NCBI RefSeq assembly: GCF_000368825.1
Contig: NZ_KB849717.1
Coordinates: forward strand, 62,001-126,000
Length of the DNA: 64,000 bases
Source of the DNA: Acinetobacter ursingii DSM 16037 = CIP 107286
GTDB taxonomy: Bacteria > Pseudomonadota > Gammaproteobacteria > Pseudomonadales > Moraxellaceae
Direction of reading: 5' to 3'
The translations under genes were made by a program, and so were the position numbers. Positions within the stretch are counted from its first letter, which is position 1. Every line of letters starts with the position of its first letter. Below the pieces are notes generated by a model. It was not told the origin of the DNA and ran no database searches. It saw only the letters and a list, made by a program, of their open reading frames with translations. Of this stretch, positions 25,602-30,678 are shown piece by piece.

Positions 25602-25632
25602 AAAAATACGATGTTTAAGCCATCGTATTTTT
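25602..25632. terminator. Bidirectional terminator between benE-like and mgtC-like genes
   Basis: AAAAATACGATG / CATCGTATTTTT, a perfect 12-bp stem with a 7-nt loop. The mgtC-like stop codon lies in the loop, so the hairpin uses the last codons of that gene. Confidence 0.85.
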
Positions 25633-26334
25633 ATCCCAATAGGCCTGTTGAACTTGTGGCATTTGATTAAGTTGCTTAATCATTTCATTCATTTCAACAG
25701 GGTCTATGGACGTTGCAATTAAGGTTGCCTCGATTTCCACATCTTCTTCACCAAAAGGTTCAACATCCAGATCCATCAAGGGATAATTCAAACTTTGCAA
25801 CATTTCGGTGAGTTTATACATCACCATTTTTCGATGATCCTTATGGGCGATCAGATAGATCACATGGGTCACTTCTGATTCAGCATCCAATGGTTGCCGA
25901 TCCATCATATTGACGAGAGGTCGTAATAAAGTATTCGCGGCGATAATAAATGCTGTCGCCAATATCGCCTCCATAATCAGATCTGAACCCGCTGCAGCCC
26001 CCACAGCAGCAGAACACCAAAGTGTCGCTGCTGTGTTTAAACCATGAATATTGCCTTCCTGACGCATAATCACACCTGCACCCAGAAAACCGATCCCAGA
26101 AACTACATACGCAATTACGCGTACTGCACCATCTGCCCCTGAAAGATTATTGGCGATATCAACAAAAATTGCAGCGCCTAAAGCGACCAGAACATTGGTT
26201 CTCAAACCCGCCGTTCTTTGTCGATACTGTCGTTCAAAACCAATCAATCCACCCAATAAAAAAGCAGTGGTCAGACTGATCAAAGTATTAGCCATATTAG
26301 ATAGACTGGTATTGTGTAAAAATTGCAAAACCAT
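25615..26334 (-). CDS. MgtC/SapB-family membrane protein
   Basis: Inner-membrane protein of the MgtC family, linked to growth at low Mg2+ and to control of ATP synthase and Mg2+ uptake. The N-terminal MgtC domain (to about residue 135) has four or five helices with AFLLGGLIGFERQYRQRTAG, LGFLGAGVIMRQ-like and GLNTAATLWCSAAVGAAAGS stretches; a C-terminal ACT-like domain follows (about 150-235). The ATG at 26334 is chosen since it has an AGGTG site 4 nt upstream; an earlier ATG at 26358 would overlap mgtA. It lies 10 bp after mgtA in the same operon. Confidence 0.88.
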   Translation of the reverse strand: MVLQFLHNTSLSNMANTLISLTTAFLLGGLIGFERQYRQRTAGLRTNVLVALGAAIFVDIANNLSGADGAVRVIAYVVSGIGFLGAGVIMRQEGNIHGLNTAATLWCSAAVGAAAGSDLIMEAILATAFIIAANTLLRPLVNMMDRQPLDAESEVTHVIYLIAHKDHRKMVMYKLTEMLQSLNYPLMDLDVEPFGEEDVEIEATLIATSIDPVEMNEMIKQLNQMPQVQQAYWDKNTMA

Positions 26335-26344
26335 ACTGCACCTG

Positions 26345-29107
26345 TTATTGCCAGCCATAACGACGAATATAAATACCTTTTATCCATTGAGTCACACACA
26401 TATAAGCCAATAAAATACAAGGTAAATATAGAAAATACGTCAATGGTAAAGCTTCTAGTTTAAAGTAATGTGCCAAAGGCCCCATTGGTAAAAATATTCC
26501 AATTGCACTAATGATCATCGTCATGACTACCAACGGTGTTGCAGCACAGCTTTGAATAAACGGAATTTTTTTGGTTCGAATCATATGAACGATTAAAGTT
26601 TGAGTCAGTAGCCCCACAACGAACCAGCCAGACTGAAACAAGCTTTGTTGGGCTGGTGTATTCGCATCAAATACGAACCACATCATGCCAAAAGTCAAAA
26701 TATCAAAAATAGAACTGATTGGCCCGAAAACCACCATAAAACGCCCAACTTCTGATGGCTGCCAGCGTTGAGGTTTTTCAAGCTGCTCTTCATCTACATG
26801 ATCAAACGGAATGGCAATTTGTGAGACATCATAAAGTAAGTTCTGTACAAGCAAATGAATTGGCAGCATAGGCAAAAATGGAATAAATGCACTAGCTACT
26901 AATACCGAAAAAACATTACCAAAATTTGAACTGGCCGTCATTTTGATATATTTGAGCATATTGGCAAAGGTTCGACGACCTTCAATGACACCATTTTCAA
27001 GTACCATCAGACTTTTTTCGAGAAGAATTAAATCTGCTGACTCTTTGGCAATATCAACAGCCGAATCTACAGAAATCCCAATATCCGCCGCACGAATCGC
27101 TGCCGCATCGTTAATCCCATCACCGAGAAAACCAACCACATGGCCATTTGCCTTAAGTTGCTCAACGATTCGTTCTTTATGAATTGGACTTAATTTGGCA
27201 AAGATAGTGTATTCTTCTACGACAAGTTTTAAATCTTCGTCAGATAATGTCTCAACCATTCCACCCAATAAAACCTTTTCATGAGGAATACCAATTTCTT
27301 GACATATTTTTTGGGTCACAAATTCATTATCCCCAGTCAGTACTTTTACACTAACACCATGCGCATGTAATTGTTGTATGGCAGGTCGAGCAGATTCTTT
27401 AGGTGGATCCAAGAAAGTGATATAACCAGCCAAAATTAGGTCGCTCTCGTCTTTGACTGAAAAGTTTTCGCAGATACCATCAAAGTCACGATAAGCTACA
27501 GCCACAACGCGTAGACCTTCACGATTATAATGTTGCGTAATTTCTTCAATCTCTTTACGAAGTTGGGCAGTTAACTCTTTGATCTCTCCTTTAATTTCAA
27601 TATGAGTACAGACCTTGATCATTTCCTCGACAGCACCTTTGGTCACCATACGAATCTGGGATTGAGGAGTACGTACGATTACTGACATACGGCGGCGTTC
27701 AAAATCAAATGGAACTTCATCAAGCTTTTTAAAACGTAGCTTTTCAAACTTCATATCTTGATCAACAGCTTCAAGTACAGCTACATCCAACAAGTTCTTG
27801 AGTCCCGTTTGATAATAGCTATTTAAAAAAGCCAGCATCAGCACTGTATGTGATTTTTTTCCTAATACGTCGACGTGATGTGATAGAAAAATTTTATCTT
27901 GTGTCAGCGTTCCTGTTTTATCGGTACATAGCACATCCATCGCACCAAAATTTTGAATGGCATCCAGACGTTTCACTATTACTTTTTTTCTGGATAAAAA
28001 TACCGCACCTTTCGCAAGTGTTGAGGTCACAATCATCGGGAGCATTTCTGGTGTTAAACCCACCGCAACGGACAGGGCAAATAATACTGCCTCACCCCAA
28101 TCTCCTTTGGTGAACCCATTAATGAATAAAACAATAGGTGCCATAATCAACATAAACCGAATCAGTAACCAACTGATTTTATTCACGCCTAGCTGAAATG
28201 AAGTCACGCTGCGATCGGTTGCAGTAACCCGGTGTGCCAATGCACCAAAATAAGTTTGAATACCTGTATTAAGCACGACAGCTTTTGCCGTACCTGAGAC
28301 CACATTGGTTCCCATAAAGACTAAATTATCAAGTTCTAATGGGCTATTTACATCCATACTATGTTGTAATGCATATTTTTCTACAGGCATAGATTCTCCA
28401 GTCATGGCTGCCTGTGAGACAAATAAATCTTTTGCCGAAAGAATTCGACAGTCAGCAGGAATCATATCTCCCGCAGAAAGCAAGATAATATCGCCTGGAA
28501 CCAGATATTGGATGGGTATTTCAAACTGAATCTCTTTAAGCTGTTTTACTTTCGCCCCATATCGCTGTTGCAGCAAACTCAAATCTGAATAATTAATCTT
28601 ACGACGCAACACCATGGCCGTATTCGTGACCATAGCTTTGAGCGACTCAGCGGCTTTGTTTGACTTAGACTCTTGCCAATATCGCAAAAATGTTGAAAGC
28701 AATACCATGATGCTAATAATGACTGACCCAGTTAGATCATCTGTGAGGAATGCGACAACAGCCAAAAGACTCAGTAATACATTAAAAGGATTACGATAGC
28801 AGTACCACAGATGTTGCCACCACGTTAACGGTTTTTCCTGTGCAACCTCATTAAGTCCAACTTTAAGCTGCTGCTCTTGTGCTTCAACTTCAGTTAAACC
28901 CTCTTCATGCGAAGATAAAGTATTTAAGAGTGCTTCACTTTCAAGTGTTGAATAATGTCTTAATTGCACTGCCAGAGTTTGCCCAATTTCTTTGGCATAA
29001 CTAGATTGATGCAATTCTTTAAAAGAACTATTTCGAATAAAGAAACGTTTTAAATGAAAAGTTTCCAGAAAACGTGTAAATAGACGTTGCCATAGATCAT
29101 ATTTCAT
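26345..29107 (-). CDS. mgtA: Magnesium-translocating P-type ATPase MgtA/MgtB
   Basis: P3B-type ATPase that imports Mg2+ across the inner membrane. The 920-aa protein has the phosphorylation motif DKTGTLTQD near residue 400, the TGES actuator motif (AAMTGESMPVEKY), the nucleotide-binding region, KVLTGDNEFVT, GDGINDAAAIRAADIGIS and three pairs of C-terminal helices. These are hallmarks of MgtA/MgtB. It is flanked by a secreted protein gene upstream and an mgtC-like gene 10 bp downstream, all behind the structured leader at 30014-30136. Low-Mg2+ induction is expected. Confidence 0.95.
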   Translation of the reverse strand: MKYDLWQRLFTRFLETFHLKRFFIRNSSFKELHQSSYAKEIGQTLAVQLRHYSTLESEALLNTLSSHEEGLTEVEAQEQQLKVGLNEVAQEKPLTWWQHLWYCYRNPFNVLLSLLAVVAFLTDDLTGSVIISIMVLLSTFLRYWQESKSNKAAESLKAMVTNTAMVLRRKINYSDLSLLQQRYGAKVKQLKEIQFEIPIQYLVPGDIILLSAGDMIPADCRILSAKDLFVSQAAMTGESMPVEKYALQHSMDVNSPLELDNLVFMGTNVVSGTAKAVVLNTGIQTYFGALAHRVTATDRSVTSFQLGVNKISWLLIRFMLIMAPIVLFINGFTKGDWGEAVLFALSVAVGLTPEMLPMIVTSTLAKGAVFLSRKKVIVKRLDAIQNFGAMDVLCTDKTGTLTQDKIFLSHHVDVLGKKSHTVLMLAFLNSYYQTGLKNLLDVAVLEAVDQDMKFEKLRFKKLDEVPFDFERRRMSVIVRTPQSQIRMVTKGAVEEMIKVCTHIEIKGEIKELTAQLRKEIEEITQHYNREGLRVVAVAYRDFDGICENFSVKDESDLILAGYITFLDPPKESARPAIQQLHAHGVSVKVLTGDNEFVTQKICQEIGIPHEKVLLGGMVETLSDEDLKLVVEEYTIFAKLSPIHKERIVEQLKANGHVVGFLGDGINDAAAIRAADIGISVDSAVDIAKESADLILLEKSLMVLENGVIEGRRTFANMLKYIKMTASSNFGNVFSVLVASAFIPFLPMLPIHLLVQNLLYDVSQIAIPFDHVDEEQLEKPQRWQPSEVGRFMVVFGPISSIFDILTFGMMWFVFDANTPAQQSLFQSGWFVVGLLTQTLIVHMIRTKKIPFIQSCAATPLVVMTMIISAIGIFLPMGPLAHYFKLEALPLTYFLYLPCILLAYMCVTQWIKGIYIRRYGWQ

Positions 29108-29218: not shown

Positions 29219-29911
29219 TTAGGGCGTAAAGCTTAAGCCAAAGCCAAACCATCGCTCTCGAAAAGTATTTAAGCGCTGTCCAATGGACGCTTCAAAAGTC
29301 AAAATATTAGGAAGGATAGAATAATGAATAGCACCTTGTAACAAAGGCGCATGTTGATCTTGGTTATAAGTTTCAACACTAACACTTGTTTTTGGAGTTA
29401 AAGCAAGGTTAGATGCCAAACTCCAGCGCAGTAAATTCAAGTTTCGTGGTGAATATTGATAACCAATATTACTATCTATATGCAGAGAATTATTAAGATA
29501 AACTAAAGAAAAAGGAATGTTAAGAAACCACTGAATGGACTCTTTATCTTTTTCATTCTGCTGGGAAACTTGAAGGCTGGCAGCCATTCCCCATTGACTC
29601 ATCGGTTGGATCACACCTTTAACTTGAGCGAACCATTGCCCTTTTCCCGCATCAACAAATTGGTCAGTATAAGAAATCGAACTTTCAACCCCCTCAATGA
29701 ACTGGCAAGCCGTATTTAATTGATAGCTTGCCTGTGAAACTGACGGGCGAGTTACAGCGGATTCCAACTGGCAATGTTTTGCAGACACAATGTCTGCATC
29801 GTCTGTATTCAACAATGGATCTGCTTTGGCATATTGTGACAGCAACATACAAATCCAGATGCAAAAGCATTGAATACTATAGAGTTTTAAAATTGAAGCA
29901 TGTAACCACAT
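29219..29911 (-). CDS. Hypothetical secreted, beta-strand-rich envelope protein
   Basis: A 230-aa protein with an N-terminal hydrophobic signal (about residues 1-30, cleavage likely after QYAKA). The mature part has repeated alternating polar/hydrophobic strands (WFAQVKGVIQPMSQWGMAAS, FEASIGQRLNTFRERWFGFG) and ends in SFTP, resembling an outer-membrane beta-barrel. I do not recognise a named family. The ATG at 29911 is preferred because GGGAG lies 6 nt upstream; an ATG at 29926 would put that site inside the gene. First gene after the structured leader and 111 bp before mgtA, so a part in divalent-cation uptake is plausible. Confidence 0.7.
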   Translation of the reverse strand: MWLHASILKLYSIQCFCIWICMLLSQYAKADPLLNTDDADIVSAKHCQLESAVTRPSVSQASYQLNTACQFIEGVESSISYTDQFVDAGKGQWFAQVKGVIQPMSQWGMAASLQVSQQNEKDKESIQWFLNIPFSLVYLNNSLHIDSNIGYQYSPRNLNLLRWSLASNLALTPKTSVSVETYNQDQHAPLLQGAIHYSILPNILTFEASIGQRLNTFRERWFGFGLSFTP

Positions 29912-30013
29912 TAGCTTCTCCCACATTTTAGAAGGAGTCTAAGCAGGCAGTATTACGCCCGAATGAAAATTCAGCGTGATTCAATATAGATATGGATATA
30001 AATGTAATGACAA

Positions 30014-30136
30014 ACTATCTCATTGCAAGATAGTCGCCCTAAGTAGTGACTTTTCTTGCTCAGATGACAGTATGCATAACCAATTTACAGCATAACCTCG
30101 AACAACTTCCCACTTAGGGTCTCCTCATATTAAATT
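30014..30136 (-). promoter_or_regulatory. Structured 5' leader RNA of the Mg2+ transport operon (candidate riboswitch)
   Basis: Starting about 10 nt after the predicted transcription start, minus-strand RNA would form a long-range stem CCCTAAGT/ACTTAGGG (30112-30119 with 30037-30044, 8 bp perfect) enclosing about 67 nt. Inside are two GTTATGC copies (complements of 30074-30080 and 30090-30096) and a GCATAC that could pair with either. A second hairpin (30014-30034, 7-bp perfect stem, 7-nt loop) follows. Roughly 100 nt later the first gene's GGGAG site could pair with CTCC upstream. It does not match the M-box, yybP-ykoY or Cobalamin consensus as I know them. Its function as an ion sensor is inferred from position. 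Confidence 0.55.
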
Positions 30137-30143
30137 TGGCTGT

Positions 30144-30171
30144 ATTATATTTAGATTTTCTTAATTTACAA
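30144..30171 (-). promoter_or_regulatory. Sigma-70 promoter of the Mg2+ transport operon
   Basis: On the minus strand, -35 TTGTAA (30171-30166) and a perfect -10 TATAAT (30149-30144) are 16 bp apart. Initiation is expected near 30136, leaving an unusually long untranslated leader of about 225 nt before the ATG at 29911. Confidence 0.75.
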
Positions 30172-30234
30172 GTCCTTTTAGTGCAACTTTTTACAGATAA
30201 AATACAATTACTGTAAAAACATCATCTGCATCGA

Positions 30235-30678
30235 TTAAAGTTCTTTGACCACGACTGTTTTCGCCATTTTATCGTGCCAACCCTGTTTTTTTGAATCAAA
30301 TGCAATCCAGATGAATCCGAGCATAAAAACCAAAGTAGATGGTATATATCCGATATAACGAATAATCGACTGACCTAAAGTCAGTTTATCACCCGTTTTT
30401 TCATCTAGCACCTTTAAACGCATCAAACGCTTGCCAGGTGTTCCACCTAAATATAACCAAAAGAGAATCGTGTATAAAAATGGGAAAATATAATTGACTA
30501 GAATATCAAACCATAGCGAAGCTTTTTGATCAGCCAAACCTGTAGAAAAAACCAGATCATAATTCCCTTGATAAAAAATCCATGCTGAAGGTATGATAGC
30601 TAACATCATAATCAGTGTATCAATAATCGAAGCGCCACAACGTATCCAAAAGCCTGCGTATTCATATTTATAAGACAT
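30235..30678 (-). CDS. RDD-family membrane protein
   Basis: A 147-aa inner-membrane protein with three hydrophobic segments. The RDD signature is in YAGFWIRCGASIIDTLIMML (Arg and Asp residues in helix 1) and LYLGGTPGKRLMRLKVLD in the middle, which is the GxxPGK block typical of the family. Some RDD proteins are Na+/H+ antiporters or protein-quality factors, but the role here is unknown. It stands alone, read toward the Mg2+ operon leader. Confidence 0.88.
   Translation of the reverse strand: MSYKYEYAGFWIRCGASIIDTLIMMLAIIPSAWIFYQGNYDLVFSTGLADQKASLWFDILVNYIFPFLYTILFWLYLGGTPGKRLMRLKVLDEKTGDKLTLGQSIIRYIGYIPSTLVFMLGFIWIAFDSKKQGWHDKMAKTVVVKEL

Follow-up and report, generated by a model that had tools for sequence, protein, structure and literature searches.

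A putative ribosome-read attenuator with a short upstream reading frame precedes magnesium-transport genes in Acinetobacter and betaproteobacteria

In a 64,000-nucleotide stretch of Acinetobacter ursingii DSM 16037 = CIP 107286 (contig NZ_KB849717.1, positions 62,001 to 126,000; hereafter the window, in which all coordinates are counted), a leader of ~225 nt lies on the minus strand between a promoter and a series of three genes that includes mgtA and an mgtC-like gene. Our comparative analyses suggest that this leader is a translation-coupled attenuator read by a ribosome on a short upstream open reading frame (uORF), a reading to which we assign a probability of roughly two in three. The initial annotation had described a structured leader resembling a switch with alternative folds; the structure, its conservation and its covarying stems held up, but a ligand-type switch made of RNA only did not hold as the main idea. 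The uORF itself (30113-30060), a key part of the leader, had been overlooked. Because its start codon lies in helix P1, its codons 3-5 in helix P2 and its stop in a competing strand, ribosome-mediated attenuation is likelier than an RNA-only ligand switch. The elements of the leader are given below; A:B is helix P2, C:D is helix P4, and strand B alternatively pairs with strand C.

30144 to 30171, minus strand: sigma-70-like promoter TTGTAA-16-TATAAT, with a -10 TATA that is invariant in 11 aligned sequences (window included).
30121 to 30125, minus strand: Shine-Dalgarno (SD) sequence AGGAG of the uORF, 7 nt ahead of the start codon, a spacing mostly kept in relatives.
30112 to 30119, minus strand: 5' strand of P1, CCCTAAGT, overlapping the uORF start codon (covariation, pair counts and constrained folding).
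30060 to 30113, minus strand: uORF GTG...TGA, MGSCSRLCCKLVMHTVI, 17 codons plus stop, present at 50 of 51 Acinetobacter places.
30100 to 30105, minus strand: strand A, the 5' strand of P2, UUGUUC, at uORF codons 3-5 (pairing not beyond permutation within either group).
30048 to 30061, minus strand: strand B, GAGCAAGAAAAGUC, at and after the uORF stop, pairing with A (through 30061-30056) or with C (30059-30054 with 30030-30025).
30037 to 30044, minus strand: 3' strand of P1, ACTTAGGG (covariation, pair counts and constrained folding).
30015 to 30033, minus strand: hairpin P4, CUAUCUUGCAAUGAGAUAG, of which the 5' arm and loop are strand C and the 3' arm is strand D (C:D covaries).
29938 to 30014, minus strand: stretch between P4 and the anti-SD with more C than G, a candidate Rho loading region judging by its C/G ratio.
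29918 to 29937, minus strand: possible hairpin of CTCC (29937-29934) with GGAG (29921-29918) over the SD of the first gene (weak, folding at chance level).

The conserved core of the leader spans ~30126-30010 and folded better than 200 of 200 shuffles (z -2.99). The full leader reached z -2.60, with 1 of 200 shuffles equally good, and its 3' half folded at chance level (z -0.59). The promoter that had been proposed at 30171-30144 is present; a scan by itself found such sites at chance level (2 in the short region, whereas its shuffles averaged 1.4), and the support comes from the invariant TATA. An 8-bp stem enclosing 67 nt, likewise predicted at the outset, proved to be P1 (30119-30112 with 30044-30037). 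The duplicated GTTATGC is also there; it falls where the uORF varies, and it is not conserved.

A DNA search recovered the leader in 11 of 58 genomes (its own included), and a covariance model built from nine of those 11 Acinetobacter leaders (R1) recovered it in 49 of 175 Acinetobacter genomes at E<=1, at 52 places, in records that include A. baylyi, A. nosocomialis and A. seifertii. Together with covariation and the fold of the core, this conservation bears out the leader as a real element. Examination covered 51 of the 52 places (the window and 50 fetched loci; G120:C131, E 0.26, was left out). mgtA lies downstream at 27 of them and mgtC without mgtA at 22, giving a Mg2+ gene at 49 of 51; the other two are L055, where the contig ends, and L061 (E 0.2), which has neither a uORF nor a Mg2+ gene and was dropped as a chance match. 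The first gene varies, being a beta-barrel gene, mgtA ~355 nt on, or mgtC itself (L043-L045), and the constant feature is the leader together with mgtA or mgtC. Viewed from the gene, mgtA scored above its family cut-off in 34 of 175 genomes, 28 of which had an R1 match (in G114 on a different contig from mgtA). At 11 mgtA or mgtC loci without an adjoining R1 match (L260-L270), a model from 29 sequences, L161 included (R3), found divergent leaders at three, in G067, G129 and G158 (E 0.0032 or better), MGISSSSCSEYLSEQMSAHGTS being one of their uORFs; counting these, 31 of the 34 mgtA genomes carry the leader. Locus L060, in genome G104, holds a second, divergent leader copy, MPNSSSRCCSLSIVILED, ~290 nt before another mgtC gene.

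The uORF of the window reads GTG GGA AGT TGT TCG AGG TTA TGC TGT AAA TTG GTT ATG CAT ACT GTC ATC TGA, and a uORF was found at every Acinetobacter place examined except the weak match L061. All 50 begin M-[GDAP]-[SN]-[CS] and are 16-19 codons long; that of L091 has one in-frame TCG more than the window, and that of L060 was recognised by a pattern widened after its sequence had been seen. Across a family set of 70 unique sequences (47 from Acinetobacter, 23 from betaproteobacteria), the first in-frame stop fell at codon 13-22 in 70 of 70, versus 8 and 1 of 70 in the other frames, a count that is partly selected in the betaproteobacteria, where start codons were picked by eye to suit the motif. 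Among 28 gap-free Acinetobacter uORFs, substitutions at codon positions 1, 2 and 3 numbered 9, 18 and 23. Start, frame and, in most relatives, the SD are conserved, and we infer from the sequences that the uORF is translated.

By the same kind of comparison, the leader is limited neither to Acinetobacter nor to mgtA. A strict pattern run over 84,980 species genomes gave 33 stretches, 32 in Acinetobacter and one in a metagenome-assembled genome of Sulfuricella, a betaproteobacterium (L112), in which the same kind of uORF (MDSCSSGGMRLRVAGFASAR) is followed by an outer-membrane gene and mgtA. In a sample of the order to which L112 belongs, mgtA was found at E<=1e-200 in 84 of 250 genomes, and the upstream DNA of 60 of these genes, mostly the best-scoring, was examined. 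The leader preceded 19 of the 60: 13 were found (E<=8e-4) with R2, a model from five betaproteobacterial leaders (four among the 60, and no Acinetobacter sequence), and six more with R3 (E<=0.0016). A motif scan of the same 60 regions gave six hits on the gene strand and three weak ones on the control strand. The 23 betaproteobacterial sequences of the family set include L194, L195 and L196 despite sub-threshold R2 matches (E 0.73-1.5); L178, with a weak motif and no good SD, was dropped. Turned on Acinetobacter, R2 matched the window leader at E 0.005 and 20 of the 29 loci searched among the 50 (E<=10), all at the leader and on the correct strand, with no other match in 230 kb of those loci, which constitutes an independent test, by sequence model, of homology between the Acinetobacter and betaproteobacterial leaders. 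Across whole genomes of L112's order, R2 gave 12 matches at E<=4.2e-6, all before transport or outer-membrane channel genes and nine of them before mgtA operons. A 13th (L231, E 3.7e-4) had no uORF of this kind and was taken as chance.

An alignment of relatives for compensatory changes, a check proposed with the initial annotation, found the stems conserved and covarying. In permutation tests, which compared native pairing with pairing after partners were swapped between species, P1 in 34 Acinetobacter sequences scored -11.86 versus -9.32 (sd 0.34; 0 of 5000 permutations as good), and no permutation of C:D equaled the native pairing in either Acinetobacter or the betaproteobacteria (0 of 2000 in both). 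B:C in the 23 betaproteobacterial sequences scored -16.65 versus -12.83 (sd 0.64; 0 of 2000), and A:B went beyond permutation only in the pooled set (26 of 2000). Pair counts in 40 Acinetobacter sequences (alignment fitted to R1) showed double-sided changes at 20 of 34 pairs, with a covariation score of 0.218 versus 0.133 in shuffles (0 of 500) and at most 0.077 when slid; a mixed alignment of 29 (fitted to R2) showed them at 9 of 18 pairs, with a score of 0.191 versus 0.147. At the level of aligned sequences these comparisons demonstrate mutually exclusive conserved helices as well as covariation of P1, P4 and, in betaproteobacteria, B:C.

Folding was then constrained by masking the positions that a ribosome would cover, either early in the uORF or at its stop. 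The window leader was predicted to form B:C (0.99) and not P4 (0.00) with an early ribosome, and P4 (0.98) and not B:C (0.00) with a ribosome at the stop; the mask at the stop itself covers B, which makes the loss of B:C there trivial. Relative to the stop position, an early ribosome raised B:C in 46 of the 47 Acinetobacter sequences and lowered P4 in as many; among the 23 betaproteobacterial sequences, B:C rose in 20 and P4 fell in 19. With the early mask, B:C was the stronger of the two in 42 of the 47 Acinetobacter sequences, against only 10 of the 23 from betaproteobacteria. Computation yields two folds around the uORF that exclude each other, and the modeled toggling of the competing helices by ribosome position is clear in Acinetobacter and mixed in the betaproteobacteria.

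A mechanism along the following lines would join these elements. A ribosome would start at the SD and GTG or AUG of the short uORF once these emerge. Were the uORF finished, the ribosome at the stop would sit on strand B and P4 (C:D) would form; after its departure, A:B (P2) and P1 would close, shutting off the uORF. A stall or fall-off in the first codons would leave A covered and P1 blocked, and the free strand B would pair with C, preventing P4. By analogy with the leaders mgtL, corL and mgtP, the finished state (P4) would be the OFF state, probably via Rho in the C-rich stretch; in the unfinished state, expected in low Mg2+, RNA polymerase would continue into the outer-membrane channel gene, mgtA and mgtC. 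Both Mg2+ as the signal and the assignment of the ON state are inferred from this analogy: in enterobacterial leaders, the OFF state accompanies efficient translation of the uORF in high Mg2+, in Salmonella with Rho (PMC11552253, PMC8092293, PMC3641672). Rho-dependent termination has been reported for Salmonella mgtA, whereas the same paper gives none as detected for E. coli mgtA (PMC11552253). The C-rich stretch would suit Rho, and Rho-dependent termination is proposed here by the same analogy: in 45 of 47 Acinetobacter sequences the 80 nt that follow P4 hold more C than G, and so does a stretch of 150 nt from a fixed point 65 nt past the stop codon in 19 of 23 betaproteobacterial ones, the sole control for this comparison being the ratio in the core. 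A candidate for the sensor within this mechanism is the rare codon AGG, present at codon 6-8 in 44 of 47 Acinetobacter uORFs; its letters lie in or beside strand A, so that its codon role and pairing role are inseparable here. The fuller proposal, that this is an undescribed class of Mg2+-starvation leader in Acinetobacter and betaproteobacteria in which the sensing step is elongation along a rare-codon peptide rich in Ser and Cys and lacking proline and conserved acidic residues, is more tentative, and we put it a little short of even odds.

Several observations weigh against the attenuator. The permutations and pair counts take no account of shared ancestry, and the alignments were fitted to the structure. 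B:C in Acinetobacter, where the letters hardly vary, is only slightly above permuted (115 of 2000 and 44 of 5000 permutations as good), and A:B is not beyond permutation in either the betaproteobacteria (267 of 2000) or Acinetobacter (1565 of 2000 and 2543 of 5000). In addition to the trivial loss of B:C under a ribosome at the stop, the mask for an early ribosome still leaves P4 equal to or stronger than B:C in 5 of the 47 Acinetobacter sequences and 13 of the 23 betaproteobacterial ones. With no mask, the predicted fold of the full-length window leader has B:C (0.94) and not P4, along with a long-range pairing of the uORF SD and start with the anti-SD region, which speaks against P4 as a simple default. 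No convincing intrinsic terminator was found after P4: hairpin-linked T runs mostly fall where the first gene begins, the sole terminator-like site within the leader is on the other strand, and this candidate output was rejected. Nor were leaders found at 41 of the 60 betaproteobacterial mgtA genes examined or, with R1 or R3, at the remaining 8 of the 11 Acinetobacter mgtA or mgtC loci. As for the peptide, 33 of 47 codon changes among the 28 gap-free Acinetobacter uORFs alter the amino acid, so that, judging by these sequences, selection past the first codons is weak and the later codons are loosely held. Finally, the window uORF, MGSCSRLCCKLVMHTVI, lacks the proline and acidic codons to which mgtL owes its Mg2+ sensitivity; since no proline or acidic residue is conserved across the family either (peptide position 2 can be G, D, N, A or P), the mgtL rule does not extend to this leader.

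The strong conserved structure with covariation, and the concealment of the uORF start codon by P1, would also suit a Mg2+-binding riboswitch in which P1, P2 and P4 fold in high Mg2+ unaided by ribosomes, the uORF being a by-product or an output gene; folding alone has been reported as enough to modulate Rho termination at Salmonella mgtA (PMC11552253). We nevertheless hold this unlikely. The frame of the uORF is maintained even though the apical part differs among relatives in both sequence and length, P1 is not evident in the betaproteobacterial folds inspected (the common parts are the uORF start, P2 and P4), and no Rfam riboswitch matched. The last point agrees with the remark in the initial annotation that the leader resembles no known Mg2+ or Mn2+ riboswitch: all 4227 Rfam families gave no match at gathering score in the window or 11 related loci, and positions 29700-30400 gave just two unrelated chance matches at E<=10, on which grounds identity with a known riboswitch was rejected. 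The models without a match include that of the mgtL-type mgtA leader (Rfam Mg_sensor) and those of the M-box (ykoK) and yybP-ykoY riboswitches.

An attenuator that senses a cue other than Mg2+ is distinctly unlikely in our estimate, yet the composition of the uORFs lends it some substance. The cue could be how far a rare tRNA is charged (for Arg AGG in Acinetobacter, for Ser AGU in betaproteobacteria), the supply of serine or cysteine, or stalling by an antibiotic. Serine makes up 19% of residues in Acinetobacter and 27% in betaproteobacteria, and cysteine 8%. Of the 18 codons for Ser, Arg, Cys and Gly that were tabulated in the window genes, AGG is the rarest (0.6 per 1000); it occurs at codon 6-8 in 44 of 47 Acinetobacter uORFs. 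AGU accounts for 52 of 103 Ser codons in betaproteobacterial uORFs, versus a 5% share of Ser codons across the genes at seven of those loci. The regulated genes, however, serve Mg2+ uptake and not amino-acid supply or resistance, and codon choice may instead reflect pairing, as the same letters form strand A.

Purely translational control, in which the uORF and the anti-SD would set access to the SD of the first gene and leave transcription unaffected, appears hardly likely. A possible anti-SD/SD pair exists, as the initial annotation had noted (CTCC with GGGAG), but it comprises only 4-5 bp in a region that folds at chance level. The minimum-energy fold of the full leader does pair the SD and start of the uORF (30126-30121 and 30117-30109) with a stretch that includes the anti-SD (29937-29932 and 29947-29939). 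Against such control, first genes of different families stand at different distances, and mgtA follows the uORF at 296-1141 nt in five betaproteobacterial loci, one of which has an intervening gene. The least credible alternative, a conserved promoter and RNA-stability element with the uORF as a decoy coding sequence, fits the joint conservation of promoter and leader and leaves the covarying alternative helices and the frame conservation unexplained; we regard it as very improbable.

Some further features of the 3' region were observed. The long-range pairing of 30126-30109 with 29947-29932 would free the SD of the first gene, and GUG/GCUUAG of some species corresponds by eye to AUG/GUUUAG of others. 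At L003, L006 and L008 the 3' end of the leader carries another element immediately ahead of the first gene. It includes CCACUUAG or CACUUAG, a possible partner for the 5' strand of P1 at two of these three loci, and two of the three have a hairpin CCUCAGCGAUGAGG.

The genes downstream of the leader in the window agree with the secreted protein, mgtA and mgtC proposed initially, the latter two through matches to TIGR01524 and PF02308:

29219 to 29911, minus strand: first gene, with ATG 29911 taken as its start, encoding 230 residues with a signal peptide and a 12-strand outer-membrane beta-barrel predicted by AlphaFold.
26345 to 29107, minus strand: mgtA, Mg2+-translocating P-type ATPase (TIGR01524, 1356 bits).
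25615 to 26358, minus strand: mgtC-like gene (PF02308).

The AlphaFold model of the first-gene product consists of a signal helix and 12 strands (pLDDT 83.8, pTM 0.71). Its best Foldseek matches are outer-membrane beta-barrels including CdiB, NanC and KdgM, all weak (best E 6.7e-4); Pfam and NCBIfam gave no family for the window protein, and 3 of 21 aligned first-gene proteins matched the LbtU siderophore porin family weakly (best E 0.0041). Beta-barrel homologues lie between uORF and mgtA in betaproteobacteria, at L252 (27% identity; E 3e-23 in a single comparison) and L174 (28%). The first gene, judging by the model, probably encodes an outer-membrane channel, and that Mg2+ passes through it is a guess from gene context. 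Window MgtA is 63-66% identical to that of betaproteobacterial L252-L254 over 921 residues and 44-48% identical to that of L167, L174 and L182 over 149-187 N-terminal residues, the stretches compared being different; these sequences carry no more than a hint of operon transfer between lineages. Just upstream of the leader, at 30235-30678, lies a gene for an RDD-family membrane protein, as it does at 34 of 51 Acinetobacter leader places.

Among the betaproteobacterial leaders that precede other genes, that of L251 stands before a porin gene, and only a trace of MgtA was matched there; the porins of L251, L112 and L253 are 64-77% identical to that of L254, which belongs to the OprB family (PF04966, E 1.7e-31). 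Downstream of the leaders of L249 and L250 lie genes for an ABC permease and an ATPase, 67% and 60% identical, respectively, between the two loci; at L249 (L249:1549-4618) the families are BPD_transp_1 and ABC_tran/AAA_assoc_C, and the permease is of double length. Neither genome is among the 84 with mgtA at the threshold used, and this transporter is a candidate Mg2+ importer.

Wider scans of the class and order used stricter filters, which lose weak matches. The strict pattern matched 3 of 369 genomes of the class, its own and, with two mismatches, L125 and L127, both inside longer unrelated frames with no Mg2+ gene adjoining and judged chance. R3 matched 5 of 229, its own and four weak matches without an adjoining Mg2+ gene, again judged chance; this sample of 229 genomes of the class showed no spread outside Acinetobacter and betaproteobacteria. 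In an order sample of 293 genomes R1 matched its own genome only.

If the attenuator reading is true, Acinetobacter gains a dedicated Mg2+-linked RNA switch; the genus is not known to have the PhoPQ system used by enterobacteria. The leader would then be another solution for coupling Mg2+ uptake to translation of a tiny open reading frame, and a peptide without the features of mgtL could serve to test which property of a nascent chain or codon run senses Mg2+. The outer-membrane beta-barrel and the uncharacterised ABC transporter, the latter from two genomes without an mgtA match, would be Mg2+ uptake candidates within the regulon. No account of the leader came up in the literature searched, judging by titles and abstract openings, and among the matches listed for uORF peptide strings only cancer or immunology papers appeared by title.

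The closest parallels lie in enterobacteria. Like the window leader, mgtL, the mgtA leader of Salmonella and E. coli, combines a short uORF, two exclusive folds and a stem sequestering the uORF SD with mgtA downstream (PMC11552253). Unlike mgtL, the window peptide has no Pro, Asp or Glu and the RNA has no Rfam match, the hosts are Acinetobacter and betaproteobacteria, and the first gene often encodes an outer-membrane channel. The corA leader corL is similar in having its uORF inside stem A, an OFF state upon efficient translation, and pyrimidine-rich regions beside stem B (PMC11552253); it serves a different gene, and the window leader matched no leader in Rfam. With mgtM and mgtP, the tandem attenuators of mgtCBR, the window shares uORF attenuation before mgtC (PMC3641672), but here there is one uORF, and it is not proline rich, whereas mgtP responds to proline limitation (PMC3641672). 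The scheme of alternative stems (1:2, 2:3 and 3:4) with the ribosome placed on region 1 recalls mgtQ, in the gap between mgtC and mgtB; mgtQ, however, acts on the mgtB ribosome-binding site and needs Asp2 and Glu5 (PMC8092293), and no acidic residue is conserved here. Attenuation of Mg2+ genes through a uORF is already known, and what is new, so far as Rfam and the literature searched show, is this leader family, with its unrelated peptide and RNA.

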